From NCBI GenBank assembly GCA_016926255.1, contig JAFGOY010000070.1, forward strand, positions 1 through 64,000: a DNA stretch of 64,000 nucleotides, written 5' to 3'. Of this stretch, positions 45,814-59,288 are shown piece by piece. Numbering within the stretch: position 1 is the first letter of the stretch; every line of letters begins with the position of its first letter. Made by a program: the position numbers and the translations under genes. The notes under the pieces were generated by a model, which was not told the origin of the DNA, did no database searches, and worked only from the letters and a program-made list of their open reading frames with translations. The stretch is from Anaerolineae bacterium. GTDB taxonomy: Bacteria > Chloroflexota > Anaerolineae > Aggregatilineales > UBA3940.

Positions 45814-46317
45814 CTATATCTTAACCTGACGTGGGTGCAGCCGGTCGTGCCAGCGTGCCAGCAGACGCAGGACCGGGATAAACAGAACGATATCAAACAA
45901 TACTGACGGCAGTGTAACATACCCGAAGCTTGCCGACCACGATAAAGGATAATCGGTGAGGAAACGCAGCAGAAGCATATAGATCACATGGTAGGCTGTC
46001 GCACCGACGGCGGTGAGCAGCAGGGGGAGCAGCAGGGATGCCCGGTAGACCTGCGCTTCGAGCAGACCGATCAGGTAGGCAAGGGGCAGCAGCGCCAGCG
46101 ACGAAACGCCAAGGGGCATCCCGGAGAACAGGTCGAGAAGAAGGCCTCCGACAAAGGCCCAGGCCAATCCCTCCTGCTCCTGATCGAGTGTCGACCAGGC
46201 AAGAACGAGAAGTACAACCAGATCGGGCTGTCCACCGTAGACCCGCAGATGGGGAAGCACCGTCGCCTGGAGGAGGACGGCGACAACAAAAAGCGGGATG
46301 CCTAACTGGAGACTCAC
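45814..46317 (-). CDS. mreD: Rod shape-determining protein MreD
   Basis: A 167-residue membrane protein with five to six hydrophobic helices and the family hallmark GGQPDLVVLLVLAWSTLDQEQEGLAWAFVGGLLLDLFSGMPLG. It is part of the elongasome linking MreB to peptidoglycan synthesis. It overlaps mreC by four bases and precedes PBP2, the classical order. Confidence 0.93.
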   Translation of the reverse strand: MSLQLGIPLFVVAVLLQATVLPHLRVYGGQPDLVVLLVLAWSTLDQEQEGLAWAFVGGLLLDLFSGMPLGVSSLALLPLAYLIGLLEAQVYRASLLLPLLLTAVGATAYHVIYMLLLRFLTDYPLSWSASFGYVTLPSVLFDIVLFIPVLRLLARWHDRLHPRQVKI

Positions 46318-47192
46318 TGCCCTGTCCCGCCTTCGGATTCAATGACTTCATCGAAGGTGGCCAGGTCGACCGGCTCGAAGCTGGTGATGATCGAGACGAT
46401 GCGCAGGTTGTCATAGTCAACGGTTGGGCGGATTTCGGCGGACTGGAAAAGGTCGGCCTGCTGGCGGCGGACGCTGGTCACCTGGCCGATCACGATATTG
46501 GCCGGGAAAGTGCCACCCAGTCCGGAGGTCAGCACCAGGTCACCAGGTTCGACGAGCGCCTCCTGCGGGATGAGTTCCATGCGCAGGCCGCCCTGAAGCT
46601 GCCCGGTGACCGTTCCCTCGGCGCGGGCGGTTTGCAGGCGGGCGTTGATCGCGCTCTCCGGGTCGTTGGTCAGGCGTATCCAGGCAGCGTTGGCCGCCAC
46701 GCTTTCGACGCGCCCCACCAGTCCCAGGTCGCTGATCGCCGGGTTGCCGACCTGGACGCCGTCCCGCGTGCCCCGGTTGATGATCACCCAGCGCAGGTAG
46801 CTGCTCGTGTCGCGGGCGATCACATCGGCGGTGACGAAGTTCTGATCGGTATTTTCGGACGCATAATTGAGAATATCGCTCAGGCGGTAATAGTCCTGCT
46901 CGATCTCGCGCAGGCGGACGATCTCGACCTGCATCTCGGCGACAAGCCGCTCAAGTTCGAGCGCACGCTCTTCCAGGTCGGCATACTCAAGGGGGTCTTC
47001 AGTCAGTTCCTGGGCGGCCCCGGCGCCATCGGTCAGCAAACCAGCGGCGGGTTTAAGCGGGGCCATGATCGCCGTCTGGATGATCCGCAAAACGCCGGAC
47101 TGACTACCGGCTATGATCAGAATGGTGACAATCAATAAAATGCCGAAGGTCACCAGCCATCTGTTTTCACGGCGCATAACAGTTAATCCCAT
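46314..47192 (-). CDS. mreC: Rod shape-determining protein MreC
   Basis: A 292-residue protein: short cytoplasmic start, one membrane helix (WLVTFGILLIVTILIIAGS), a coiled coil (DLEERALELERLVAEMQVEIVRLREIEQDYYRLSDIL) and a beta-barrel domain (VIINRGTRDGVQVGNPAISDLGLVGRV; LVLTSGLGGTFPANIVIGQV). The ATG at 47192 is used; ATG 47177 is also possible. It scaffolds PBP2 on the outer membrane face. Confidence 0.93.
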   Translation of the reverse strand: MGLTVMRRENRWLVTFGILLIVTILIIAGSQSGVLRIIQTAIMAPLKPAAGLLTDGAGAAQELTEDPLEYADLEERALELERLVAEMQVEIVRLREIEQDYYRLSDILNYASENTDQNFVTADVIARDTSSYLRWVIINRGTRDGVQVGNPAISDLGLVGRVESVAANAAWIRLTNDPESAINARLQTARAEGTVTGQLQGGLRMELIPQEALVEPGDLVLTSGLGGTFPANIVIGQVTSVRRQQADLFQSAEIRPTVDYDNLRIVSIITSFEPVDLATFDEVIESEGGTGQ

Positions 47193-47204
47193 CAAACAAA
47201 CAAT

Positions 47205-47240
47205 CAGGTGTGGTCCCTATCCAAACTGGAACCACACCTG
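47205..47240 (-). promoter_or_regulatory. Hairpin between mreB and mreC
   Basis: A 10-bp perfect stem (47205-47214/47231-47240) with a 16-nt loop lies in the 75-bp gap. Only scattered T residues follow on the minus strand (GATTGTTTGTTTG), so it may partly terminate or protect the mreB message. That would make MreB more abundant than MreCD. Confidence 0.5.
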
Positions 47241-47267
47241 TTATTTTATCACGTTCGCTTCTGTTGA

Positions 47268-48329
47268 TCAGTGGTGGGTGGAACCACGTTCCAGTCCGAC
47301 GAGCACGCGCCGCAGGTTGTCGTAGTCTTCGAGGACGCGCCCCGCACCACGCGCCACGCAGGTCATCGAGTCTTCGGCAAGCCAGACACGCATGTTGACA
47401 TCGTCGGCGACCCGTTCGGTCAGCCCGGCAAGCTGCGATCCACCTCCCGCCATACAGATGCCGCTCTCCATCAGGTCGGCGATCAGTTCGGGGGGTGTTT
47501 CTTCGAGGGCGTCTTTAATCGTGTCAATGACAATCTGGACGGAAGTCGAGAGCGCTTCACGGAGTTCAATCGAGGAGAGTTCGACGGCTTCGGGCAGCCC
47601 GGTGATCAGGTTGCGGCCGCGCATGGTAAAGGTGCGTTCCTCCGGCAGGGCAAAGGCCGAGCCGCACTCGATTTTGGCGCGTTCGGCCATGCGCTCGCCG
47701 ATCAGCAGGTTATATTTTGAGCGCATGTACTGGATGACATCCTCGTCCATCTCATCGCCCGCCACGCGGATCGAGCGGCTGATTACGATGCCGCCCAGCG
47801 AGAAGATGGCGACCTCGGTGGTGCCGCCGCCGATATCGACAATCATGCTGCCCCGGCTTTCGGTGATGGGCAGTCCGGCCCCAATTGCGGCGGCCATCGG
47901 CTCTTCGATCAGGAAGGCTTCACGCGCACCGGCGGAGATCGTCGCATCGTAGACGGCGCGTTTCTCGACTTCGGTGACACCGCTGGGGATGCCGACCACG
48001 ACACGGGGGCGCGGAACCGGCACCAGCGATTGTTCATGGGCCTTACCGATGAAGTATTCGAGCATCGCCTGGGTGATCTCGAACTCGGAGATGACCCCAT
48101 CCCGCAGCGGGCGGATCGCCACGATGTTGGCCGGGGTGCGCCCGACCATCTGGCGGGCCTCGGAGCCAATTGCCAGGGCCTTGCGAGTACTTTTTTCAAT
48201 CGCCACCCAGGATGGCTCGTTGATCACAATACCCCGTCCACGGACGTTGACCAGCGTATTTGCCGTACCGAGGTCGATGCCGATATCGAGAGAAAACAGA
48301 CCAAGTAACCAGTTAAGCGGGGTAAACAC
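47268..48329 (-). CDS. mreB: Rod shape-determining protein MreB
   Basis: A 353-residue bacterial actin that forms filaments directing lateral wall synthesis. ATPase motifs are SLDIGIDLGTANTLV (phosphate 1), SRGSMIVDIGGGTTEVAIFSLGGIV (phosphate 2) and GICMAGGGSQLAGL (adenosine). The GTG at 48329 is chosen: AGGAG lies 10 nt upstream, and the resulting short FTPLNWLLGLF start mirrors the membrane-binding amphipathic N-terminus of MreB. A TTG at 48359 would add ten residues without a site. Confidence 0.96.
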   Translation of the reverse strand: MFTPLNWLLGLFSLDIGIDLGTANTLVNVRGRGIVINEPSWVAIEKSTRKALAIGSEARQMVGRTPANIVAIRPLRDGVISEFEITQAMLEYFIGKAHEQSLVPVPRPRVVVGIPSGVTEVEKRAVYDATISAGAREAFLIEEPMAAAIGAGLPITESRGSMIVDIGGGTTEVAIFSLGGIVISRSIRVAGDEMDEDVIQYMRSKYNLLIGERMAERAKIECGSAFALPEERTFTMRGRNLITGLPEAVELSSIELREALSTSVQIVIDTIKDALEETPPELIADLMESGICMAGGGSQLAGLTERVADDVNMRVWLAEDSMTCVARGAGRVLEDYDNLRRVLVGLERGSTHH

Positions 48330-48644
48330 AGAGGGTGTACTCCTCAAGTGGGCAAACAATCACCCTGATTTTTTTATAGTGATGGGAACTTTTCAGGCTC
48401 TATGTAAAACATCTCGCAGCGAGAATTAGATGATCGACGTAGGATTTTATACTGCGAGACACAAAAAGCCTGACAGAACCTGTAGGGCATAAATAAGACA
48501 GATAATTTCAGAAAAACTATCACTTTTGCAAATAGGATAAAGTGATAAATGTTTATCAGCCTGCCGCCGAATTATACCATTGCCAAAAAGTGCCTGCAAT
48601 GTACCGATTCTGGGGCCCGGTGCTTGAGCGCCGGGAATTGGCGA
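48330..48644. other. Upstream region of mreB with a short repeat
   Basis: No gene was seen. The mreB promoter is expected here (a TATAAA box on the minus strand near 48450). At 48617-48638 is a GC-rich inverted-repeat element also found at 59441-59462. Confidence 0.4.
48617..48638. repeat. Short GC-rich inverted-repeat element, copy 1
   Basis: A 22-nt element beginning CCGGTGCTT and ending GCGCCGGGAAT. It can form a small hairpin and matches 59441-59462 with one difference. Both copies are intergenic. Confidence 0.5.
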
Positions 48645-49889
48645 TCATCCCTCCCAACCTGCCGCCGACCGGCCCGCCAGCCAGCCCGTCGAAAAAGCCG
48701 CCTGTAGATTATATCCTCCGGTGTCTGCGTCGATATCGATCACCTCTCCGGCAAAATACAATCCCTCGACCAGCCGCGAGGCCATCGTGCGAGGATCGAT
48801 CTCGCGGATGTCCACGCCCCCGGCAGTGACAATCGCCTGGGCAATCGGCTGGAATCCGGTCACTTCAAGCCGGAAATCTTTCAACCAGCCTCGCAGCCGA
48901 CCGCGCTCCTCGGACGTGATCTGATGCCCTGGTTTGTCAGGAGAAATCTCGACCAGCCTTGAACACACCGGGATCAACGACTGCGGCAGCAGGTCTTTCA
49001 GAATCCGCTGGAAATGCTGCTTGCCCTTCTGATCGAAATCCCGCAGTAGCCGTGCATCGAGTTTTTTCTCGTCGAGCGCCGGTTTGAGATCAATCGATAG
49101 GCTCACTGATTGTTTTCGCAGCACCGCATCGACCACCTGCTTACTCATCGTCAGGATGACCGGCCCGGAGACGCCGTAATGGGTAAACAACATCTCCCCG
49201 AACTCCTCCGTCTGTTTTTTTCCATCGACATACAGGGTCACGTTCACGTTGCGCAGGCTCAAACCCTGCAATTCCTTTGCGACATCACCGGCGGTCTTGA
49301 GTGGCACCAGCGCAGGGCGTGCAGGCACGATGCCGTGCCCCACTCCTTCCGCCAGATAATAGCCGTCCCCCGTCGATCCCGTTCCCGGATACGACATACC
49401 ACCCGTCGCCACGATCACCGCATCGGTCCGGTAAGTCTTATCGGTCGTCTGAATCGCGGTGACCCGTCCGTCTTCCACCAGCAGGCGTTTCACCCGCGTT
49501 TTCGTCCTGATCTCCACACCCAGGCCGCGCACCCAGCCTACCAGCGCATCGACCACGTCCCCGGCTTCTTCGCTCGCAGGGAACACCCGTCCGCCCCGCT
49601 CGGTGACCGTCTTCACGCCCAGATCGGCCAGCAGCGCCAGCAGGTCATCGCTGAAGAACCGGTAAAACGCCCCGCGCAAAAATCGCCCGTTTGAGCCAAA
49701 GTGCGCGACGAAGTCCTCTATCTCCGCGATATTCGTGATATTGCATCGCCCTTTGCCGGTTATTTTAAGTTTTTTCCCCGGCCAATCCATCTTTTCGAGC
49801 AGCAGCACTTCCGCCCCCATCGAAGCTGCCTGCCCCGCCGCCATCAGCCCCGCCGGGCCGCCGCCGATCACGATCACCTGTTTTGCCAT
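48645..49889 (-). CDS. NAD(P)/FAD-dependent oxidoreductase (BaiN/HI0933-like)
   Basis: A 414-residue flavoprotein. It has the N-terminal dinucleotide fold VIVIGGGPAGLMAAGQAASMGAEVLLLEK, then KKLKITGKGRCNITN (a HI0933-family hallmark), VIVATGGMSYPGTGSTGDGY near residue 162 and the C-terminal GLYFAGEVIDIDADTGGYNLQAAFSTGWLAG. Members include BaiN-type reductases; most are uncharacterised. It is divergent from the WD40 lipoprotein gene. Confidence 0.9.
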   Translation of the reverse strand: MAKQVIVIGGGPAGLMAAGQAASMGAEVLLLEKMDWPGKKLKITGKGRCNITNIAEIEDFVAHFGSNGRFLRGAFYRFFSDDLLALLADLGVKTVTERGGRVFPASEEAGDVVDALVGWVRGLGVEIRTKTRVKRLLVEDGRVTAIQTTDKTYRTDAVIVATGGMSYPGTGSTGDGYYLAEGVGHGIVPARPALVPLKTAGDVAKELQGLSLRNVNVTLYVDGKKQTEEFGEMLFTHYGVSGPVILTMSKQVVDAVLRKQSVSLSIDLKPALDEKKLDARLLRDFDQKGKQHFQRILKDLLPQSLIPVCSRLVEISPDKPGHQITSEERGRLRGWLKDFRLEVTGFQPIAQAIVTAGGVDIREIDPRTMASRLVEGLYFAGEVIDIDADTGGYNLQAAFSTGWLAGRSAAGWEG

Positions 49890-50055
49890 ACACCCTCCGT
49901 TTGATATCGCCCTAGAGCATGAACCGTCCGGGGACGTTTGTCAACCTTTGATTATGGAACTCGACGGCGAAACTTGGACGATCCCACACACGTTGGTTAC
50001 ACTTGTTCGGCAGTTTAGACCGCGATTATCAGGTGTTCATTACACCGGTGAGATT

Positions 50056-51180
50056 ATGAAACGATTGACTCCGCTATTATTATTTGTCCTGCTCGTGCTG
50101 ACCGCCTGTCAGATTCAGCCCTCCTACCTGCCCACGCCGACCAAAACGCCTTATAGCATGTCGACCGCCCTGCCTCCCGCAACGGCAGCCCCGACACTGG
50201 AAGCCACCGCAACCCTCGAACCCACCCAGGCACCCGATTCGGCAGCTGATATCACACCGACCCAGGTGCCGCAGCGTGAAGCGATCACCATTGAGAATGC
50301 GTCCCAGGTGGCAAGTACACGCCTGGATTCACTTGATCATCCCACCGCTCTGGTCTGGTCGCCTGACGGAAGCCTGCTGGCGGTGCTTGCCGAGAACGGT
50401 ATCTCGCTTTTCGACAGCGATGATTTAACCGCCGCACCGCGCCTGATCGATCCCGGCACCGGTGGCGGCAGCAGCATTGTTTTTACGCCCGATGGCAGCT
50501 CCATCATTCTCGCCGGGTACGACAACACCGTCCAGGTGATCGATGTTGTATCGGGTGGGGCAGATACCCTGCTCGACGGCATCAATGTCAATACACTGGC
50601 GATCAATCCTGCCGGGACGATGCTCGCCGTTGGCGACAGTGTGGGCAAAGTCCACCTGCTCGATTTCCCCTCCGGCGATCTCGTCCAGCAGCTTCAAATC
50701 GGCTGGCCAATATGGTCTGTTGCTTTCAGTCCCGATGGTACGATCCTCAATTCCGGCGGTGACGACGGCATGGTCTGGATGTGGGATGTCGTCAACATGC
50801 AGCTTCTCAACAAGTATGACTATATCGGCGAGGTCTGGACTATCGATTTCAGTCCGGATGGCATCTTCTTCGCCACCGGCAGCGCCGATAATTCCGTCCG
50901 GCTGTGGGACGTGCTGTGGGCAGGCACACGCCGCGAAGTGACTTTCGAAGAACATGGCAACGACGTACTGGCTATCGATTTCAACCCCGACGGCACGATC
51001 ATCGCCTCCGGCGGCGCTGATGGATTTTTGTACTTATGGGATGTCATCATCGGAGGGAGCCTCGTCCGCTTTGAAGCAGCCCCCGGCAGTCAGGTTGTCT
51101 CTGTCGCCTTCTCACCCGATGGCACCATGCTGGCGACGATCAACAGCTACGGCCCCATCGATCTATGGGAGCTACCATAG
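50056..51180 (+). CDS. WD40-repeat lipoprotein
   Basis: A 374-residue exported lipoprotein with a lipobox near residue 17 (LLVLTAC), then a Pro/Thr-rich linker and seven WD40-type repeats (for example VWSPDGSLLAVLAENGISLFD, WSVAFSPDGTILNSGGDDGMVWMWDV). These would close one seven-bladed propeller. The ATG at 50056 is preceded by GGTGAG and begins a proper signal peptide; the long in-frame upstream stretch overlaps the divergent gene and is spurious. It is a probable protein-interaction scaffold on the cell surface. Confidence 0.85.
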   Translation: MKRLTPLLLFVLLVLTACQIQPSYLPTPTKTPYSMSTALPPATAAPTLEATATLEPTQAPDSAADITPTQVPQREAITIENASQVASTRLDSLDHPTALVWSPDGSLLAVLAENGISLFDSDDLTAAPRLIDPGTGGGSSIVFTPDGSSIILAGYDNTVQVIDVVSGGADTLLDGINVNTLAINPAGTMLAVGDSVGKVHLLDFPSGDLVQQLQIGWPIWSVAFSPDGTILNSGGDDGMVWMWDVVNMQLLNKYDYIGEVWTIDFSPDGIFFATGSADNSVRLWDVLWAGTRREVTFEEHGNDVLAIDFNPDGTIIASGGADGFLYLWDVIIGGSLVRFEAAPGSQVVSVAFSPDGTMLATINSYGPIDLWELP

Positions 51181-51243
51181 TGGGCGACCGCAAGGGGCGT
51201 CCCTACAGTTCCGTCATTTTGAATTGGCCCATCCCAAAAATAA

Positions 51244-51285
51244 AACCGGGGGACATCGCAAGAAGATGTCCCCCGGTTCATTTTT
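51244..51285. terminator. Bidirectional terminator
   Basis: A perfect 14-bp stem with a 7-nt loop (51244-51257/51265-51278) is followed by CATTTTT on the plus strand and TTTTATTTTT on the minus strand. It ends both the WD40 gene and the acyl-ligase operon. Confidence 0.9.
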
Positions 51286-51300
51286 CCCGTTTAGACGTTC

Positions 51301-52998
51301 CTACAATCCCTTTTCGTCCAGGAATTTCAATCGATTCGCCGAGCGCGACACTTTGCCGCTGCTGGTCTTGACCAGCCAGCCGCGCGGCACCAGTTCGACA
51401 TAGCGAACGGCCACGTCACTACCCGCCGCCACCTTTCGCCGGACATTCGCCTTGAGTAGCGACTTTTCCTCGTCGGGCATATCGAAATCGTCGATCTCGG
51501 CGATGACCGCCACGTCTTCGGTCCCGGCTCCTACATTCGGTGCACCGAAAGCTACCACCCGACCGGGGTGAATGCCATCGACTTTACTGACCAGCATCTC
51601 GATATCACGCGGGTAGACGTTCTTCCCACCGACGATGATCAGGTCTTTCTTACGTCCTAAGACGAACACTTCGCCGTCGGCCACATAGCCCATATCGCCA
51701 GTCAGGTACCAGCCCTCGTGGAAAGCTTCCTCGGTCGCATCCGGGCGTCGATGGTACTCAGTCAGCATGTAGGAGCAGTTCAACGCGATCTCGCCGATCC
51801 GACGTTCGGGCAGCGGATTGCGATCCGGGTCAAGCACCCTGACGTTCATCCCGCCAATCGGCTTCCCCGACGAAACCGCCGACTCGACGTTCTCGTAATC
51901 CGGTTCCACCGGCACCGCCTGTAAGTCTTCGCGCAGTGCCTTGCGATCCAGCCACTCGACCCGCGCCGGTTCGCCGATCTTGCTCTGGGTGACGCCGAAC
52001 ACGGTTTCCGCCATCGCGTAGCAGGTCGCCAGCTTCTCGATTCCTGCCCCGTAGGGTTCAAATCGTTCGGCAAACAGGCGGTGACTGTTGTCATAGATCG
52101 GCTCCGAGCAGTTGATGAAGGCGCGCATCGAACTCAGGTCAACGCCTTCCAGGTTTTCATCCCGGATTTTCTGAGCGCAGAAGTTGTAGGTAAAGTTCGG
52201 CAGCCAGGTCAGCGTTCCGCCCTGAGCGGTGATCGCCTGAAGCAGCATGTGAGGAGCGCGCACCCAGTCGAAGGGTGACATCAACACCAGCCGCGCGCCG
52301 GTCAGTAAAGGCATCAGGAACCCGGCGATCAGCCCCATGTCGTGGTAAAGCGGCAGCCAACTGACAATCACATCGTCGGTCGTGAAATCAAGTGACTTGC
52401 TGTACTGATCGAGCTGCTCGAAGATCGCCCGGTGTGCCAGCGCGACACCCTTTTGCAGCCCCGTCGTCCCCGACGAGTGCTGTAAGAGCGCCACCACGTC
52501 TGGATCGAAGGTTCCATCCAGGCGCGGCTCGTCGCTGTTGCCCAGCACCGATTCGGGGGTCAGTACCAGAATCTGTGGAAGGTGGATACCTTCGCCTTCT
52601 TCGGGCAGAATAGCACGGGCATCATCCTCGACCGCCGGATCGGTCGCCAGCACCGCCGGTTCCGACAGCTTGATCAGCGCCGACATCGCATTCCGGTAGC
52701 GATCCGGGTGCAGCTTTTCGCTGGCAAAGGGCATGATCGATGGGATCGCCCCCAGCAGTGCCGCCCCGAAAAAGCTCGCCGTCAGCAGCAGCGAATCCTG
52801 CTGCACGATGATCACCAGGTCGCCGGCACCAACACCCAGCGCGGCCAGTTGTTCTGCTGTGCGCTGCGCGGCCAGGTAGACTTCTTTGCGGCTCAGTACA
52901 ATTTCGTCTCTGTCGGAATAGATCAGGCGCAGGGCCTCGCGGGCGGATTCTGCGCCGGTCGCGAGTGTGAATAACTGTCCGGGTAGCGTCCGTGCCAT
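51301..52998 (-). CDS. Fatty-acyl-AMP ligase-like adenylating enzyme
   Basis: A 565-residue ANL-superfamily enzyme that activates a carboxylic acid as acyl-AMP. It has the P-loop LQHSSGTTGLQKGV near residue 178, VSWLPLYHDMGLIAGFLMPLLTG (FAAL-like), the A5-type CYAMAETVFGVTQ, the WYLTGDMGY Asp near 434, RKKDLIIVGGKNVYPRDIE and the catalytic Lys in TSSGKVSRS near the end. Proteins of this subtype load fatty acids on carrier proteins. The acyl carrier protein gene ends one base upstream of its ATG. It fills the DltA position in the acylation locus. Confidence 0.88.
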   Translation of the reverse strand: MARTLPGQLFTLATGAESAREALRLIYSDRDEIVLSRKEVYLAAQRTAEQLAALGVGAGDLVIIVQQDSLLLTASFFGAALLGAIPSIMPFASEKLHPDRYRNAMSALIKLSEPAVLATDPAVEDDARAILPEEGEGIHLPQILVLTPESVLGNSDEPRLDGTFDPDVVALLQHSSGTTGLQKGVALAHRAIFEQLDQYSKSLDFTTDDVIVSWLPLYHDMGLIAGFLMPLLTGARLVLMSPFDWVRAPHMLLQAITAQGGTLTWLPNFTYNFCAQKIRDENLEGVDLSSMRAFINCSEPIYDNSHRLFAERFEPYGAGIEKLATCYAMAETVFGVTQSKIGEPARVEWLDRKALREDLQAVPVEPDYENVESAVSSGKPIGGMNVRVLDPDRNPLPERRIGEIALNCSYMLTEYHRRPDATEEAFHEGWYLTGDMGYVADGEVFVLGRKKDLIIVGGKNVYPRDIEMLVSKVDGIHPGRVVAFGAPNVGAGTEDVAVIAEIDDFDMPDEEKSLLKANVRRKVAAGSDVAVRYVELVPRGWLVKTSSGKVSRSANRLKFLDEKGL

Positions 52999-52999
52999 T

Positions 53000-53245
53000 T
53001 TACTGATTCGCCTCGATGTGCTTGACCAGTTCTGCGACTGTGTCGAAGTTATCTGCCGTCAGTTCGTTGTCGTCGATTCTCACCCCGAAGGTCTCCTCGA
53101 CGAACAGCGCGATATCCACCAGACTGAACGAGTCGATCAGCCCGCTGGAGATCAACGGTTCGTCGTCGGCCATCGGGTAGCTTTCGTCGTGGAGAATTTC
53201 ACTTTTCAGGTAGTCTTTCAGTTTTGCGCCAATCTCGTCGCTCAT
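53000..53245 (-). CDS. Acyl carrier protein
   Basis: An 81-residue acidic carrier with the phosphopantetheine Ser in GLIDSFSLVDIALFVEETFGV (Ser39 context, DSF in place of the commoner DSL). It is separate from the fatty-acid synthase genes and precedes the adenylating enzyme with a one-base gap. It should carry the activated acyl group to the MBOAT, as DltC does in D-alanylation. Confidence 0.9.
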   Translation of the reverse strand: MSDEIGAKLKDYLKSEILHDESYPMADDEPLISSGLIDSFSLVDIALFVEETFGVRIDDNELTADNFDTVAELVKHIEANQ

Positions 53246-53293
53246 TTTTGTTTCCCTCGTTTAACTTGAATTTGATTGCGGTACCGTCTGGTC

Positions 53294-54379
53294 TCAATTC
53301 CCCGAAACGCCGCGCCACACTACATCCAGCGTTTGCAGCGCGGTCAGGTTGCGGACCGGCCAGCCGTATTGCATATTTCCCTCGTCGTAGAAGTGGCAGA
53401 ACGGCCCCTGGTAGGTCAGGTGGAAATCGTCATCGCGCAGGCCGTGCGCGGGCAGTGGATCGGTCGCCGCCCAGAAATTCCACAGCGGTACGTCGTATTC
53501 CTTCGCCACCTGAACGACCGCCGCATTGAGGCTGTAATCGCCTTCCAGGTTGTCGGCCTTCGTCGAGAGGATCGGCACCGCGCCGTGTTCGATACTGAAC
53601 TCGACGATCTGCCGCAGGTAGCCCGCATAGGTTTCCGCCGGACGTTCGTACCACCATGTCTCCATGCTGATGATCACGATGCTGGGATTGTTCACCCGGA
53701 ACTCGCATTCGAGCGGTGATTCACGCGCATCGCAGGGGGTGTGCTCGGTATCCGTCCACAGCGGCGACAGCGCCCCGGCGACGTTGAAGCCAGGATTCAC
53801 CGAGATGCGCTTGCGCGAGAACGAGTTCGTGATGTTGAAATTGTCAATCACGCCCTGGAGAGAGGTGTATTCGCCCAGGTTGTACTTGTTCGGGTCGCCA
53901 AAACCGCCCATGAAGAACTCGTAGCCGCCCTCGTTGCTATCCGCCGGGGCGTTGATGTTCTGGCAGTCGCCGATCACCGAGAACGAATTCGGGTCGGTAC
54001 CCATTGCCAGCCCACGCTGGTAAATGTCGATTGCCGTCTGGCTGACGCCGGTCGGCACAACCGGCTCTAATCGCCAGTCGCCCGTCCAGGGTGTGACGGT
54101 GATCGTTGGCTCAACTTCTGCCGGGGCCGCCTCGACCGATCCGCCCTCGGCGGGCTGTTCCGCTTCAGCGGGTGCTTCGGCCACTGCGTCAGCCGGGACC
54201 TGATCGACGGTTGTGGCGGTCGCCGGAACGGGGGTGGGTGGGACGGCGGTCGGCATGTTGGAGGTGTTGAGCGGCACCGCCACTCCCTGCGAACGCCCAC
54301 ACCCAGTGGACAGCACTATAACCACCAGCAGGCTGAGTGTCGTCATCACGTATCGAAATTGTTGTCCAGTTCGTCGCAT
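53294..54379 (-). CDS. SGNH-hydrolase-like lipoprotein, Cys-nucleophile variant (C)
   Basis: A 361-residue member of the same family as the pair at 20.9-23 kb, here inside the acylation locus. It has a lipobox at Cys27 (LSTGC), an Ala/Glu/Pro linker to residue 98, VIGDCQ (Cys139), SMETWW in the GxND place, a conserved Cys pair (216, 225) and DDFH (Asp317, His320). The ATG at 54379 is preceded by AAAGGA with good spacing. The gaps are 48 bp to acp and 23 bp to the membrane SGNH gene. It could hydrolyse, receive or present the transferred acyl group; this is unproven. Confidence 0.78.
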   Translation of the reverse strand: MRRTGQQFRYVMTTLSLLVVIVLSTGCGRSQGVAVPLNTSNMPTAVPPTPVPATATTVDQVPADAVAEAPAEAEQPAEGGSVEAAPAEVEPTITVTPWTGDWRLEPVVPTGVSQTAIDIYQRGLAMGTDPNSFSVIGDCQNINAPADSNEGGYEFFMGGFGDPNKYNLGEYTSLQGVIDNFNITNSFSRKRISVNPGFNVAGALSPLWTDTEHTPCDARESPLECEFRVNNPSIVIISMETWWYERPAETYAGYLRQIVEFSIEHGAVPILSTKADNLEGDYSLNAAVVQVAKEYDVPLWNFWAATDPLPAHGLRDDDFHLTYQGPFCHFYDEGNMQYGWPVRNLTALQTLDVVWRGVSGN

Positions 54380-54402
54380 TCTCATTCCTTTAAAAGCGGC
54401 AG

Positions 54403-55536
54403 TCATCGATCTTCAATCGATTTACCGATCTCTTCTGCCAGCAGATCCGATCCCGTTGGCGTGAGATGTATCGCGCTGTTGGTGAACTCGGTTCCGGGCA
54501 CCAGGTCCCACAAATCGAGATAGCACCATCCATTGGCCTCTGCCTGTTCTGCAAACAGAGCGCGGTAGTCGTCATACGCCCACCGCGGATAGAAGAAATT
54601 ATAACGAATGTCGCTGTTCTCACCCATGCTGATAAAAATCGGCTCGTTGACGAGGATCACCGGGACATCACCCGCCATCTCGACCCCCGCCCCGATCACG
54701 TCGAAGGCCAGGTCGTCGGCGGTCAGTGGTTCTTCGAATTCGTAGAAGGAGTAGTCTTCCTCGAAATCCTCCTGGCGCGGTTCGTAATCCGGGTAAATCT
54801 GGTCGATCCCGGTCGATGCCCACATTATGCCGTAAAGATTGAGGCGCAGCACGTCAGCAAGTGCCCGCCGCTCCCCGATGATTGTTCGATCCCAGGCTGT
54901 CCGATCCACGAACGACGGGTCGTCCGGATCGATGTTGAGATCGTATTCGGCGATCAACTCGCGCACCTGTTCCGGGTTGTTCTGCACCAGCGGCGAAAAT
55001 AGCTGCTTGCTGGATGGAGCCGCTTCGAGCGTTGTCAGCCAGATGATCAGGTCGGGATCGTAGTCCATCGCGTAGGAGAGCAGCAGCAAGTCCTTCGTCT
55101 GTGAGATGGTCGGGTGCCCCAGATTATAAAATCGCATCGACCGGCCATCCGGCGCGATGAGGTCCATCTGGTTGAGGTAGCTCGATAATGTGTCCTTTGG
55201 TTCGAGTAAATAGCCCCACACGCTCGAATCGCCCATCAGGAATACGCGATATTCATCGTCGGCTTTGGGCTGTGATGCCTCGTGTGAGGCAAACATCGCC
55301 TCGACGCTGTAGAGGCTCAGGTTGTAGGCTTTGTCGGGTGCTTCGCCGAAGGGCAGGCGCTCCCGCCCCGGCACGATTGAATTGTAGATCGATACCCGCG
55401 CCAGCATGGGCAGCGGATCGAGCAGTATGTAAAGTACATTGAGGATCACGAACAGCCCCAACGCCTTGAGGATCACCCGGATCACAAAGCCTTTGTCCGG
55501 TCGTTGAGTCGTTTCAGATGAAGGCGAATCGGCCAT
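54403..55536 (-). CDS. Membrane-anchored SGNH protein, DltD/AlgJ-like partner of MBOAT
   Basis: A 377-residue protein with one N-terminal membrane helix (about 18-40) and an extracytoplasmic SGNH domain. The nucleophile motif is FLMGDSS (Ser104) and the C-terminal catalytic His lies in NSAIHLTPTG (His357). The residue three before this His is Ser, not the usual Asp. Proteins of this layout encoded next to MBOAT genes complete acyl transfer outside the membrane. It starts 3 bp after the MBOAT stop and so is co-translated. Confidence 0.85.
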   Translation of the reverse strand: MADSPSSETTQRPDKGFVIRVILKALGLFVILNVLYILLDPLPMLARVSIYNSIVPGRERLPFGEAPDKAYNLSLYSVEAMFASHEASQPKADDEYRVFLMGDSSVWGYLLEPKDTLSSYLNQMDLIAPDGRSMRFYNLGHPTISQTKDLLLLSYAMDYDPDLIIWLTTLEAAPSSKQLFSPLVQNNPEQVRELIAEYDLNIDPDDPSFVDRTAWDRTIIGERRALADVLRLNLYGIMWASTGIDQIYPDYEPRQEDFEEDYSFYEFEEPLTADDLAFDVIGAGVEMAGDVPVILVNEPIFISMGENSDIRYNFFYPRWAYDDYRALFAEQAEANGWCYLDLWDLVPGTEFTNSAIHLTPTGSDLLAEEIGKSIEDR

Positions 55537-55539
55537 CGG

Positions 55540-56967
55540 TTACATCCCAAACAATTTCGCAAAGACCGCCCCCGCCATATCGACGGTCGGCAGCGCGAAC
55601 CATATCCAGCCCAGCAGCACGAAATGGAAGGTGAATACCACGCAGAGCACGTTGTACGCCTTTTTGAGCGCCGGGCGCTCGTCGAGTTTTCGCAGCCGGG
55701 CGCGCATTACGTTCAGCCAGCGGTTGTGTACGAATAGTCCCAGGCCGTGCCACGCGCCCCAGATCGCGTAGTTCCAGGTGACGCCGTGCCACAGGCCGAT
55801 CATGACCATGGTCGTGATCTGCCCGAACAGGATGATCGCCCAGACCGGCCACTTCTTAGCCGTCCGCATCCTGCGCGATACCGGGTTGAACCAGTAGGCG
55901 CGGAACCACTGGGCGAGGGTCATGTGCCACGAATTCCAGAAGGTGGTCAGGTTTGTTTTTAGGTAGGGCCGCTCGAAGTTCTCCGGCAACGTGATTCCCA
56001 TCAGCCGCCCGACTCCGATAGCTACATCTGTATACCCGGAGAAGTCGAGATACAGCCGGAAGGCGTAAGCGTAGAGCATCACCCACAGCCAACCGGTCGA
56101 TTCAACTTGCAGCGCGTTCTGGCCGCTCAGGGCCAGCAGCGCCAGCCCGTCGGCCAGCACGAATTTTTTCAAGATTCCGATCACGATCCGCTGCCCACCT
56201 TCATAAAGATCGGTCGGCGTGAAAGTGTATTCGGCCCGCAAATCCCTGACGAAGCGGTCGACCCGGTCGATAGGCCCTGCCGTAAATGCGGGGAAGAATA
56301 CCACGTAGATCACGAACTCTTGCAGCGAAACAGCGGGCAGCCGCCCGTTGATCCAGTCAAGCAGCACGTGCACCAGCCGGAACGCGACATACGAGAAGCC
56401 CAGCCAGCGAATATCGAACGCCGACGCCTGCTCCACCGACTGCCCCATCAGGCTGCGAATTCCCGCGCTGGCGAATTCGGTCAGCGGTTCGGTCTTGAGC
56501 ACGATCAGCAGCCCCAGCAGCCCGATGATCGTCCCAATCACCGCCCAGCGTTTACCGGTCAGCCCTCGTTCGACGCCGAACACCAGCCCGGCGATCAGCG
56601 TCAGCCCGATCCCGACGATCCAGATTTGCGGTGGTCGGGAAGGGGTCAGGCAGCACAGCGGCCCGGCGTAACGCAGCAGCCCCACGATCAACACCAGCCC
56701 AATCAGCACCGCTGCCGTGATCAGCGTTTCGCGCTGGTCGGGTTTTTCGTCCCCGCCAGCCCACGAAAGCGCCCATACTACCCCAACCAGCGCCAGCGTC
56801 GCTGTCGGCAGCCAGAAATCGAGATAGCGGATCGGCGTCACCGACTGCACCCAGTAGATGGCGAGAACACTCCCTGCCAGCATCAACCAGTTACGCCAGC
56901 GGCCCTTCGCCAGCACGCTGAATAGAATCGCCGCCGCGCTAAAGATCGATATATGAAAGAGTGTCAC
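55540..56967 (-). CDS. MBOAT-family O-acyltransferase (DltB/AlgI-like)
   Basis: A 475-residue polytopic membrane protein with about eleven hydrophobic segments. MBOAT signatures are FFPAFTAGPIDRVDRF near residue 225, YLDFSGYTDVAIGVGRLMG near 306, FWNSWHMTLAQWFRAY (His348) and the catalytic-His region GLWHGVTWNYAIWGAWHG (His394). It moves an acyl group from a cytoplasmic carrier to an acceptor on the outer face. The GTG start at 56967 abuts the stop codon of the microprotein gene. Its neighbours (ACP, acyl ligase, SGNH protein) match the Dlt scheme. Confidence 0.93.
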   Translation of the reverse strand: MTLFHISIFSAAAILFSVLAKGRWRNWLMLAGSVLAIYWVQSVTPIRYLDFWLPTATLALVGVVWALSWAGGDEKPDQRETLITAAVLIGLVLIVGLLRYAGPLCCLTPSRPPQIWIVGIGLTLIAGLVFGVERGLTGKRWAVIGTIIGLLGLLIVLKTEPLTEFASAGIRSLMGQSVEQASAFDIRWLGFSYVAFRLVHVLLDWINGRLPAVSLQEFVIYVVFFPAFTAGPIDRVDRFVRDLRAEYTFTPTDLYEGGQRIVIGILKKFVLADGLALLALSGQNALQVESTGWLWVMLYAYAFRLYLDFSGYTDVAIGVGRLMGITLPENFERPYLKTNLTTFWNSWHMTLAQWFRAYWFNPVSRRMRTAKKWPVWAIILFGQITTMVMIGLWHGVTWNYAIWGAWHGLGLFVHNRWLNVMRARLRKLDERPALKKAYNVLCVVFTFHFVLLGWIWFALPTVDMAGAVFAKLFGM

Positions 56968-57087
56968 TTAGAAACCCTGGTAAATCCACTGTGGAGACGT
57001 GGCCGCCGTCATCACGATCACCAGGATCACAATCAGGCACAGCCCGACGGCCAGCAGGTTCTCTCTGGAAAACAATTTCTTGAGCAT
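56968..57087 (-). CDS. 39-residue DltX-like membrane microprotein
   Basis: This small gene encodes 39 residues: a basic start (LKKLFSREN), one membrane helix (residues 11-29) and a short outer tail ending in WIYQGF. The ATG at 57087 lies 5 bp after the stop of the lipoprotein gene, and its TAA is immediately followed by the MBOAT GTG, so translation is tightly coupled on both sides. DltX proteins of teichoic-acid D-alanylation are similar in size and topology and end in a Tyr-containing aromatic motif thought to carry the acyl group. I infer the same role here from position and motif; no overall sequence identity can be claimed. An AGG at -8 is the ribosome site. Confidence 0.75.
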   Translation of the reverse strand: MLKKLFSRENLLAVGLCLIVILVIVMTAATSPQWIYQGF

Positions 57088-57092
57088 AAGGC

Positions 57093-57488
57093 CTAACGAT
57101 ACCCGCACATCAGCCAGTCGCCGCCCTCACGAACCGCCGAATACGTCCGTCCCTCAAGCTGGAGCGGGCGATCTTCGCCATCGTAGGTCAGCATCAGACT
57201 TCCTGTGCAGGTGACCAATGTCTCGTCGCCCTCGCTGCCCGAAGACTCGCAGGCCACACCCTCCAGCCGCGCCCCGACTGCCTCCAGCGAGTCGACCTCG
57301 ACTATCGCATCGGCTTCCCAGTCCGCGCAGGAGAGATTCACCACCCGGTTGGCGTCTTTATCGACCAGCGCCTGCAAATACGCTTCGACGGCCTGGGCTG
57401 GAGCATCCTGTCCACCGGAGCAGGCCGCCAATCCGAGAACAGCCAGCACGCTAATAATGATCAATACTAATGTAAAACGGCGCATCAT
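57093..57488 (-). CDS. Small lipoprotein, NTF2-like
   Basis: A 131-residue exported lipoprotein with lipobox LAACSGG (Cys near residue 23). The body (APAQAVEAYLQALVDKDANRVVNLSCADWEADA) resembles small NTF2-like or DUF4878-type lipoproteins. The ATG at 57488 has AGGTGA upstream; a GTG three codons earlier is weaker. It is first in the leftward acylation operon. It may be an accessory or acceptor protein. Confidence 0.7.
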   Translation of the reverse strand: MMRRFTLVLIIISVLAVLGLAACSGGQDAPAQAVEAYLQALVDKDANRVVNLSCADWEADAIVEVDSLEAVGARLEGVACESSGSEGDETLVTCTGSLMLTYDGEDRPLQLEGRTYSAVREGGDWLMCGYR

Positions 57489-57689: not shown

Positions 57690-59288
57690 ATGCAGCGTCG
57701 ATACTGGTTCACACTCTTTGCCATACTCGTGATTATCGCCGTCCTCATGATTTTGATTTCCAACGACGATGATCCGCAGATTGTCCTCCAGACCCCGGTT
57801 CTCATCGCCGAGGGCGCGGAGACAACCGGAGGATTATCCACCGCAACTTCAACGATTACCCAGACTCCATCGGAGGATATCGCCACACCGACTTCCACCG
57901 AAGAGGTCGAGGCGACCGCCTATCCCACTCCGACCATCACCCCAACTCCCGAACGGGCCGCCACGAGCGGCTATTACGTCGTGCAGGCCGGTGATACCCT
58001 CCTCGCGATTGCCTACGATCTTGGCGTCACCTTCGAGGAACTGCTAGAAGCCAACCCACAGCTCGACAGCCCGAACATGCTCCACCCCGACGATGTACTG
58101 CGCGTGCCACTTCCCGAAGGCAGCGAGGCCGCCCTGGAAATGACCGTCACGCCGCAGGCCGGTGCTGAAGTTACCGCCTACGTCTCCGCCGAAGGCGGAC
58201 GTCTGCTGCTCCGAGAAGAACCCGATCCGGGGGCTCCGGTGATCGCCCTACTCGGCGAGCAGGCACCTTTGCGTGTGCTTGGCCGCACCGAAGGCAGCGA
58301 GTGGCTCGAAGTCGAGGCGCTCCCCTCCGGGCTGATCGGCTGGGTAATCGGCGAATGGGTGATCGAAGATGTCTCCCTTGCCGAAGTTCCGATCACCGGC
58401 GAAACCATTGACGCCACCCGGACGCCAACCATCACCCCGACCCTGCCCACACCGCACCCGTTTGCCACCGCTACCCGCACCTTTACCGGTGAGGTGCTTG
58501 CCGACTATCCCTATCTGAGTAATCTCACCAGCCGTTCACAGGAGATATTCCTGCGTGGCCGTTTGATGGGCAATCGAAAGAACGTTTTCTCCAAAATCGG
58601 CGACAGCATCACTGCCAACACCGCCTACCTCTATCCCATCGGCGTGAACGACTACGATCTGCGTGACTACGAAGAGCTTCAGCCGGTCGTCGATTACTAT
58701 AGAGTGCAGCTGGCCCGCGATCACAACTCGTTCGCCAATACGTCACTGGCCGCCAAGGGCGGCTGGCTGGTCTGGCACGTCCTGATCCCCCGCTACGCCG
58801 ATCCCGAAATCTGCTATGACTACGAATCCCCCCTCGAATGCGAATACCGGGTGGTCAAGCCCTCCGTCGCCCTGATCATGCTGGGTACCAACGACATCCT
58901 CTCAACGCAGGATGGTGTCTACGAGGAAGGGATGCGGCAAGTGATCGAAATCTCGATTGACATGGGTGTCATCCCGGTCGTCAGCACCATTCCGCCTTTC
59001 TATTATGGCGATGTCGAACCAGGCCGCGTCGAACTGTTCAACAACATCATCGTCTCGCTCTGCGAAGAATACGAAGTCCCGATCTGGGATTACTGGGCAG
59101 CCCTGCAGCCGCTTCCCAACGAGGGCCTTTCCACCGATGGCGTTCACCCTTCCTGGAACGACCCGGCGGATTTCACCCCGTCGAATCTCGAATACGGGAT
59201 GGCCGTCCGCAACCTGACCGCGCTACAGGCCCTCGACGCCATCTGGCGCTACGTCATTCTGCCCGAAACCGGCGAAACGGTTCCCTGA
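57690..59288 (+). CDS. LysM-SH3-SGNH surface protein (Ser-type family member)
   Basis: A 532-residue protein: N-terminal membrane anchor (7-23), Thr/Pro-rich linker, LysM domain (YYVVQAGDTLLAIAYDLGVTFEELLEANPQL, 95-140), SH3-like domain (about 155-225), a second linker and a full SGNH domain with GDSI (Ser306), GTND (near 399) and DGVH (Asp483, His486). It shares the conserved Cys pair and the C-terminal VRNLTALQALDAIWR block with the three Cys-variant lipoproteins, so it is their canonical relative. LysM points to peptidoglycan binding. It is divergent from the acylation operon, with about 200 bp between them. Confidence 0.85.
   Translation: MQRRYWFTLFAILVIIAVLMILISNDDDPQIVLQTPVLIAEGAETTGGLSTATSTITQTPSEDIATPTSTEEVEATAYPTPTITPTPERAATSGYYVVQAGDTLLAIAYDLGVTFEELLEANPQLDSPNMLHPDDVLRVPLPEGSEAALEMTVTPQAGAEVTAYVSAEGGRLLLREEPDPGAPVIALLGEQAPLRVLGRTEGSEWLEVEALPSGLIGWVIGEWVIEDVSLAEVPITGETIDATRTPTITPTLPTPHPFATATRTFTGEVLADYPYLSNLTSRSQEIFLRGRLMGNRKNVFSKIGDSITANTAYLYPIGVNDYDLRDYEELQPVVDYYRVQLARDHNSFANTSLAAKGGWLVWHVLIPRYADPEICYDYESPLECEYRVVKPSVALIMLGTNDILSTQDGVYEEGMRQVIEISIDMGVIPVVSTIPPFYYGDVEPGRVELFNNIIVSLCEEYEVPIWDYWAALQPLPNEGLSTDGVHPSWNDPADFTPSNLEYGMAVRNLTALQALDAIWRYVILPETGETVP

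Follow-up and report, generated by a model that had tools for sequence, protein, structure and literature searches.

Does an operon that encodes a fatty acyl-AMP ligase (FAAL) and an acyl carrier protein (ACP) together with an MBOAT, a membrane microprotein and SGNH proteins specify a single surface acylation system, or do unrelated pathways share one locus? The operon lies in a 64,000-nucleotide stretch of Anaerolineae DNA (the whole of which is called the window here), and a sequence-only reading had likened it to the Dlt system with a fatty-acid-type adenylating enzyme. FAALs are familiar chiefly from the synthesis of lipopeptides and polyketides. Of the systems with which the operon can be compared, Dlt carries out teichoic acid D-alanylation, PatA-PatB-Ape1 peptidoglycan O-acetylation and AlgI/AlgJ/AlgX alginate O-acetylation.

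Layout of the operon and its neighbours

Inspection of the window's sequence and open reading frames (ORFs) confirmed that all seven of the tightly spaced minus-strand genes that had been proposed are present at 57488-51301 (Table 1). In the direction of transcription they encode a small lipoprotein, the microprotein, the MBOAT, an anchored SGNH protein, an SGNH lipoprotein, the ACP and the FAAL ligase. Directly behind the ligase gene lies a 12-bp G+C hairpin followed by TTTTATTTTT (a T tract); the hairpin has a folding energy of -31 kcal/mol (z -6.6 vs shuffled sequences), and because it is strong and is followed by a T tract the transcription unit plausibly ends at 51276-51236.

Table 1. Features of the operon in order of transcription, and the divergent neighbouring gene
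Feature	Position	Strand	Junction with next gene	Basis
Small lipoprotein, 131 aa, lipobox LAAC	57093..57488	-	stop 57093, next ATG 57087	sequence; conserved neighbour upstream of microprotein
DltX-like membrane microprotein, 39 aa, MLKKLFSREN...TSPQWIYQGF	56968..57087	-	stop 56968, start 56967, 0 nt	C-terminal motif, locus conservation
MBOAT, 475 aa, DltB-like	55540..56967	-	stop 55540, start 55536	PF03062 52 bits, above cut-off
Anchored SGNH protein, 377 aa, N-terminal TM	54403..55536	-	4-nt overlap (54406/54403)	alignment, model pLDDT 84, DltD fold match
SGNH-fold lipoprotein, 370 aa	53294..54406	-	gap 48 nt	alignments, predicted SGNH fold
Acyl carrier protein, 81 aa	53000..53245	-	gap 1 nt	PF00550 29 bits, above cut-off
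Fatty acyl-AMP ligase, 565 aa	51301..52998	-		family profiles, PDB matches, FAAL markers
Intrinsic terminator-like hairpin	51236..51276	-		sequence and folding
LysM-SH3-SGNH protein, GDS type	57690..59288	+		LysM, SH3_3 and GDSL_2 domains

Past the FAAL end of the operon, a WD40-repeat beta-propeller ORF at 49735-51180 is convergent with it (an internal start would yield a lipobox protein, LLVLTACQ), and mreC and mreB lie on the operon's own strand at 46314-48359, about 3 kb away. At the other end, the product of the divergent LysM-SH3-SGNH gene is homologous to the operon's SGNH lipoprotein and retains GDS. A divergent LysM-SGNH neighbour is also found at loci L034 and L035, and we regard this protein as a probable wall-bound esterase or partner, associated with the operon and outside it.

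The ligase, its carrier and the relay proteins

Is the ligase indeed a FAAL? It matches the Pfam AMP-binding family at 165 bits (above cut-off) and PRK09192 and PRK07768 at 315 and 342 bits, respectively (below both curated cut-offs). Its best PDB matches are nearly all FAALs or FAAL-like loading domains, and the nearest characterised structures are EcFAAL and a Legionella FAAL. The features by which Patil et al. tell FAALs from CoA ligases are, in EcFAAL (3pbk), the bulky F279, W224 and M231, seated at the bottom of the CoA pocket, and a FAAL-specific helix (T252-R258); these residues and the helix plug the pocket (PMC8460268). In the alignment to 3pbk, W214, M221 and F269 of the operon ligase correspond to W224, M231 and F279, and residues 242-248 to the helix T252-R258; the W, M and F plugs are invariant in an alignment of 18 homologues. 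In DltA controls from three Streptococcus loci, on the other hand, Q and L replace W and M and the helix pattern is absent. The A4-motif Asp was tried as a discriminator between amino-acid and fatty-acid enzymes and rejected, the Asp of DltA FDLS aligning on that of FAAL HDMG. Judged by its pocket markers, the operon ligase is a FAAL rather than a CoA ligase or a DltA; the sequence-only reading had called it FAAL-like, and a check for a CoA-ligase profile brought out FAAL markers, not those of CoA ligases or DltA. The ACP has its phosphopantetheine Ser39 in GLIDSF. It adjoins the FAAL in most loci; in the locus survey no ACP was found beside the FAAL in one family of loci (f3) and a few other genomes.

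The MBOAT's PDB matches are to DltB only (6bug/8jem), and its H348 and H394, invariant in 19 sequences, align to the DltB histidines His289 and His336 (PMC11035591). It ends in ...AVFAKLFGM, the fused C-terminal hexapeptide of the PatA/AlgI type being absent. In a tree, a branch with support 98 divides DltB, a Paenibacillus homologue and the split-type MBOATs of Chloroflexota from the hexapeptide-fused MBOATs; on the fused side, three rows lack the hexapeptide tail (one of these is cut by a contig end). By this placement the operon MBOAT groups with DltB, away from most hexapeptide-fused MBOATs.

The microprotein consists of one hydrophobic helix and a C-terminal hexapeptide, WIYQGF, that is nearly invariant in relatives and fits the acyl-shuttle hexapeptide FxYxxF of a separate microprotein, with Trp in first place. 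In the Dlt system the invariant Tyr of the DltX motif FxYxxF receives D-Ala from DltB, and DltX hands it on to the Ser of DltD; in PatA acetyl is likewise carried on the Tyr of a fused hexapeptide (PMC12148441). By analogy, the microprotein Tyr is predicted to be a covalent acyl carrier. Of 51 loci, 32 encode a microprotein ending in WIYQGF immediately before the MBOAT; it was undetected beside the MBOAT in the other 19, a number that family f3 explains only in part. In f3 the microprotein gene is absent beside the MBOAT and lies directly behind the FAAL in all seven loci (L076-L080, L082, L083). Found either with the MBOAT or with the FAAL, the microprotein links the MBOAT half and the FAAL half as parts of a single system. 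The small lipoprotein upstream matches no Pfam family above cut-off (there is a weak Rv0361-type C-terminal match below it), and its homologues adjoin the MBOAT in many loci.

Ser104 (in GDS) and His357 of the anchored SGNH protein are invariant in the alignment. Its predicted model matches DltD (3bma/7dxm) over residues 49-377 with Z 13.4, and generic esterases match the model at similar Z, mostly over the core only. Loss of the block II Gly has been linked to transfer rather than hydrolysis in PatB and OatA (PMC12148441), and that position, as mapped by motif, appears to be T, I or V in all 17 aligned sequences. The anchored SGNH protein is predicted to be the final acyltransferase. An invariant MBOAT His, a Tyr hexapeptide and an SGNH Ser/His are the sequence signs of an MBOAT-SGNH acyl-tyrosine relay, and the operon shows all of them.

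In the SGNH lipoprotein the nucleophile motif reads GDC instead of GDS, a change seen in every one of the ten operon-type homologues in the alignment, and block III has for the most part disappeared; its model is of moderate quality (pLDDT 75), with weak PDB matches that are nearly all SGNH esterases. From the GDC nucleophile and the mostly lost block III, it may bind a glycan or other acceptor, or it may use its cysteine in a relay. Clusters of several SGNH paralogues of the GDC type also lie close to the MBOAT in further Anaerolineae (L036, L038, L040, L043, L047).

Do these proteins make the operon a member of the Dlt system? Against TIGR04091 (DltB; cut-off 375) the MBOAT scores 218 bits, whereas the S. 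mitis DltB control scores 538. A search of the window's own genome with TIGR01734 (DltA) gave nothing at E<=1e-60, and none of 41 related genomes has a DltA above its cut-off of 559.85 bits, which two control genomes pass (S. mitis DltA scores 811 bits). The possibility that a DltA is encoded elsewhere in the genome was set aside on these results; the matches in four relatives are below cut-off, in long open frames, and are probably NRPS modules. The ACP scores 21.4 bits against DltC model TIGR01688 (cut-off 52.35) and 29.8 against NF003464 (cut-off 68), and the S. mitis control passes both; the microprotein does not match Pfam DltX PF12459 at E<=10, the S. mitis DltX control giving 56 bits. 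The anchored SGNH protein does not match the DltD family PF04914, the passing controls here being S. mitis DltA, B, C and X, with none for DltD; GDSL_2, which matches both SGNH proteins weakly, is its only Pfam match. By the curated profiles, no component passes its Dlt cut-off, and the system is Dlt-like in its working and not a Dlt member. The statement that the locus reproduces every element of Dlt holds, then, for the roles and not for the families, since by these profiles no part is a true Dlt protein.

Linkage of FAAL and MBOAT in Anaerolineae and beyond

The gene order lipoprotein, (microprotein), MBOAT, SGNH, SGNH, ACP and FAAL recurs in loci L096, L097, L102 and L103 with small variations: the microprotein ORF was undetected in L096 and the lipoprotein in L102, and L102 and L103 have an extra SGNH gene. 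The order in relatives, on which the sequence-only reading had staked its interpretation, is thus conserved and syntenic, and its guess that the DNA came from a member of Chloroflexota also fits: the nearest records are from Anaerolineales and other Chloroflexota, and the tree places the window MBOAT with theirs. An M23 peptidase gene, another wall-related neighbour, follows the FAAL in L097 (15815-16753).

How closely do the two halves keep together? Of 101 genomes sampled from the order, 47 encode an MBOAT as well as a FAAL, 3 MBOAT only, 12 FAAL only and 39 neither (Fisher p 8e-14), and in a sample of 301 genomes of the phylum the corresponding numbers are 23, 3, 1 and 274 (p 4e-30), both p values being inflated by the shared ancestry of the genomes counted. 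Two of the FAAL-only genomes of the order (G006, G052) carry another MBOAT beside the FAAL, and G054 and G061 have MBOAT fragments at contig ends. By hand count, of the 23 genomes in the phylum sample that have FAAL and MBOAT, 16 carry them on one strand and within 4 kb. In many genomes they sit on different contigs, and such separate placement argues against mere hitch-hiking. The gene set is widespread across the class Anaerolineae. In the cultured Leptolinea tardivitalis (L104, 9395-17193), lipoprotein, microprotein and MBOAT genes are followed by ParA and plasmid-like genes, not by SGNH genes, and the FAAL is elsewhere in the genome, away from this MBOAT.

MBOATs with a fused hexapeptide (FIYQGF, FLYFQF) are also encoded directly beside ACP and FAAL, at L091 (1696-5138), L093 (845-4175) and L123 (8155-12875); in L123, from an Acidobacteria MAG, an SGNH gene precedes the fused MBOAT, ACP and FAAL. 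Judged by gene content and MBOAT tail, this combination is a second form of the proposed FAAL-fed relay. The Acidobacteria FAAL was not found in 13 other genomes of that family, so outside Chloroflexota this is one isolated case.

Separate microproteins were seen in two further settings. In Candidatus Chisholmbacteria (L108, 2372-4675) an MBOAT gene without a fused hexapeptide is followed by a 36-aa ORF ending in FIYVDF and then by a further gene in the position of an SGNH partner; here the acyl-shuttle microprotein has apparently become a separate protein independently, outside Dlt. In Paenibacillus koleovorans (L158, 6749-10939) a microprotein ending in FIYEGF precedes a very divergent MBOAT of the DltB side, with an ACP-like gene nearby and no DltA or FAAL match.

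A predicted fatty acyl relay, its alternatives and known systems

We consider it likely that the operon encodes a transmembrane acylation system of Dlt logic that is fed by a fatty acyl-AMP ligase and places a fatty acyl group on a surface acceptor. Given the gene set, linkage, FAAL markers, catalytic residues and fold described above, we infer the acyl group, the transfer steps and the acceptor as follows: as in its family, the FAAL would adenylate a free fatty acid and load it onto the phosphopantetheine of the dedicated ACP, not onto CoA. On the cytoplasmic side, the MBOAT would receive the acyl thioester from the ACP, and its His348 and His394 would, as in DltB, pass the acyl group to the WIYQGF Tyr outside. 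As from DltX to DltD and from PatA to PatB, the acyl group would then move from the tyrosine to Ser104 in the anchored SGNH protein, and this protein would place it as an ester on the surface acceptor. Peptidoglycan or a wall glycan is our lead for the acceptor because of the LysM-SGNH neighbour, which may be compared with Ape1, the gene for which adjoins PatAB; the nearness of mreBC points weakly the same way.

Could the locus instead hold two unrelated pathways, in which FAAL and ACP start a lipid or lipopeptide and the MBOAT and SGNH proteins use acyl-CoA in the manner of PatA and AlgI? FAALs usually serve lipopeptide or polyketide assembly, and the finding of FAAL and MBOAT on different contigs in many genomes would suit such an arrangement. 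Other MBOAT/SGNH pathways are moreover thought to use acyl-CoA without a carrier protein (PMC12148441). We nevertheless think this explanation improbable: the window's ORF list has no PKS, NRPS or condensation gene among the ORFs adjoining the operon, FAAL and MBOAT co-occur strongly, the f3 microprotein sits at the FAAL, FAAL and ACP are attached to fused-type MBOATs too, and the operon MBOAT is on the DltB side of the tree, where the donor is a carrier protein.

That every Dlt role is filled and that DltB is the nearest solved MBOAT would also suit genuine D-alanylation, or the transfer of another aminoacyl group, with an enzyme of the FAAL family doing the work of DltA. The ligase has FAAL markers rather than the DltA pattern, however, its nearest solved structures are FAALs, and the DltC and DltD family models are unmatched, so that we give this very little credence. 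A short or unusual carboxylic acid (e.g. branched, hydroxy or aromatic) carried by the same relay would be a sub-case of the fatty acyl system and does not exclude it. The bacterial MBOAT/SGNH systems known so far transfer acetyl or D-Ala (PMC12148441), as this sub-case would lead one to expect, but EcFAAL, the Legionella FAAL and PRK09192 are assigned to fatty acids, and we hold such an acid to be possible and on the unlikely side.

If the fatty acyl system is as proposed, fatty acyl chains can travel through an acyl-tyrosine relay, and the donor module is exchangeable (FAAL-ACP, DltA-DltC or acyl-CoA). We also put forward, as a speculation that is rather doubtful in its full form, that Anaerolineae lipidate their wall from outside: long-chain fatty acids would reach peptidoglycan or a wall glycan via carrier, MBOAT and microprotein Tyr, and the cysteine SGNH lipoprotein would serve as a further thioester relay or acceptor. 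The resulting covalent lipid coat would be unlike teichoic acid D-alanylation or O-acetylation.

How does the operon compare with what has been described? A 2025 paper has the pathways other than Dlt working without a carrier protein and without a DltX-like microprotein (PMC12148441); in contrast, we find here a non-Dlt system with a carrier, a DltX-like microprotein and a fatty-acid-type ligase. No description of a FAAL-fed MBOAT-SGNH system was found in the literature searched (subscription papers were outside its scope), in keeping with the earlier impression that such a system is undescribed. With Dlt the operon shares the logic of ligase, carrier, MBOAT, microprotein and SGNH protein, the separate microprotein with a C-terminal aromatic-Tyr hexapeptide, the DltB histidines and a DltD-like anchored SGNH fold; it differs in that a FAAL replaces DltA and in its extra GDC SGNH lipoprotein and small lipoprotein. 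In PatA-PatB-Ape1 and AlgI/AlgJ/AlgX, too, the MBOAT passes the acyl group to a Tyr hexapeptide and then to an SGNH transferase, and the wall-binding SGNH esterase Ape1 has its likeness in the nearby LysM-SGNH gene, but PatA and AlgI have the hexapeptide fused to the MBOAT and acetyl-CoA as donor, where the operon has a separate microprotein and an ACP-FAAL donor. Like EcFAAL (3pbk), the Legionella FAAL (3kxw) and FadD32, which work with holo-ACP, the operon ligase has the FAAL-specific helix and the CoA-pocket plugs; those known FAALs feed PKS/NRPS or mycolate synthesis, whereas this one would feed a transmembrane MBOAT-SGNH relay.
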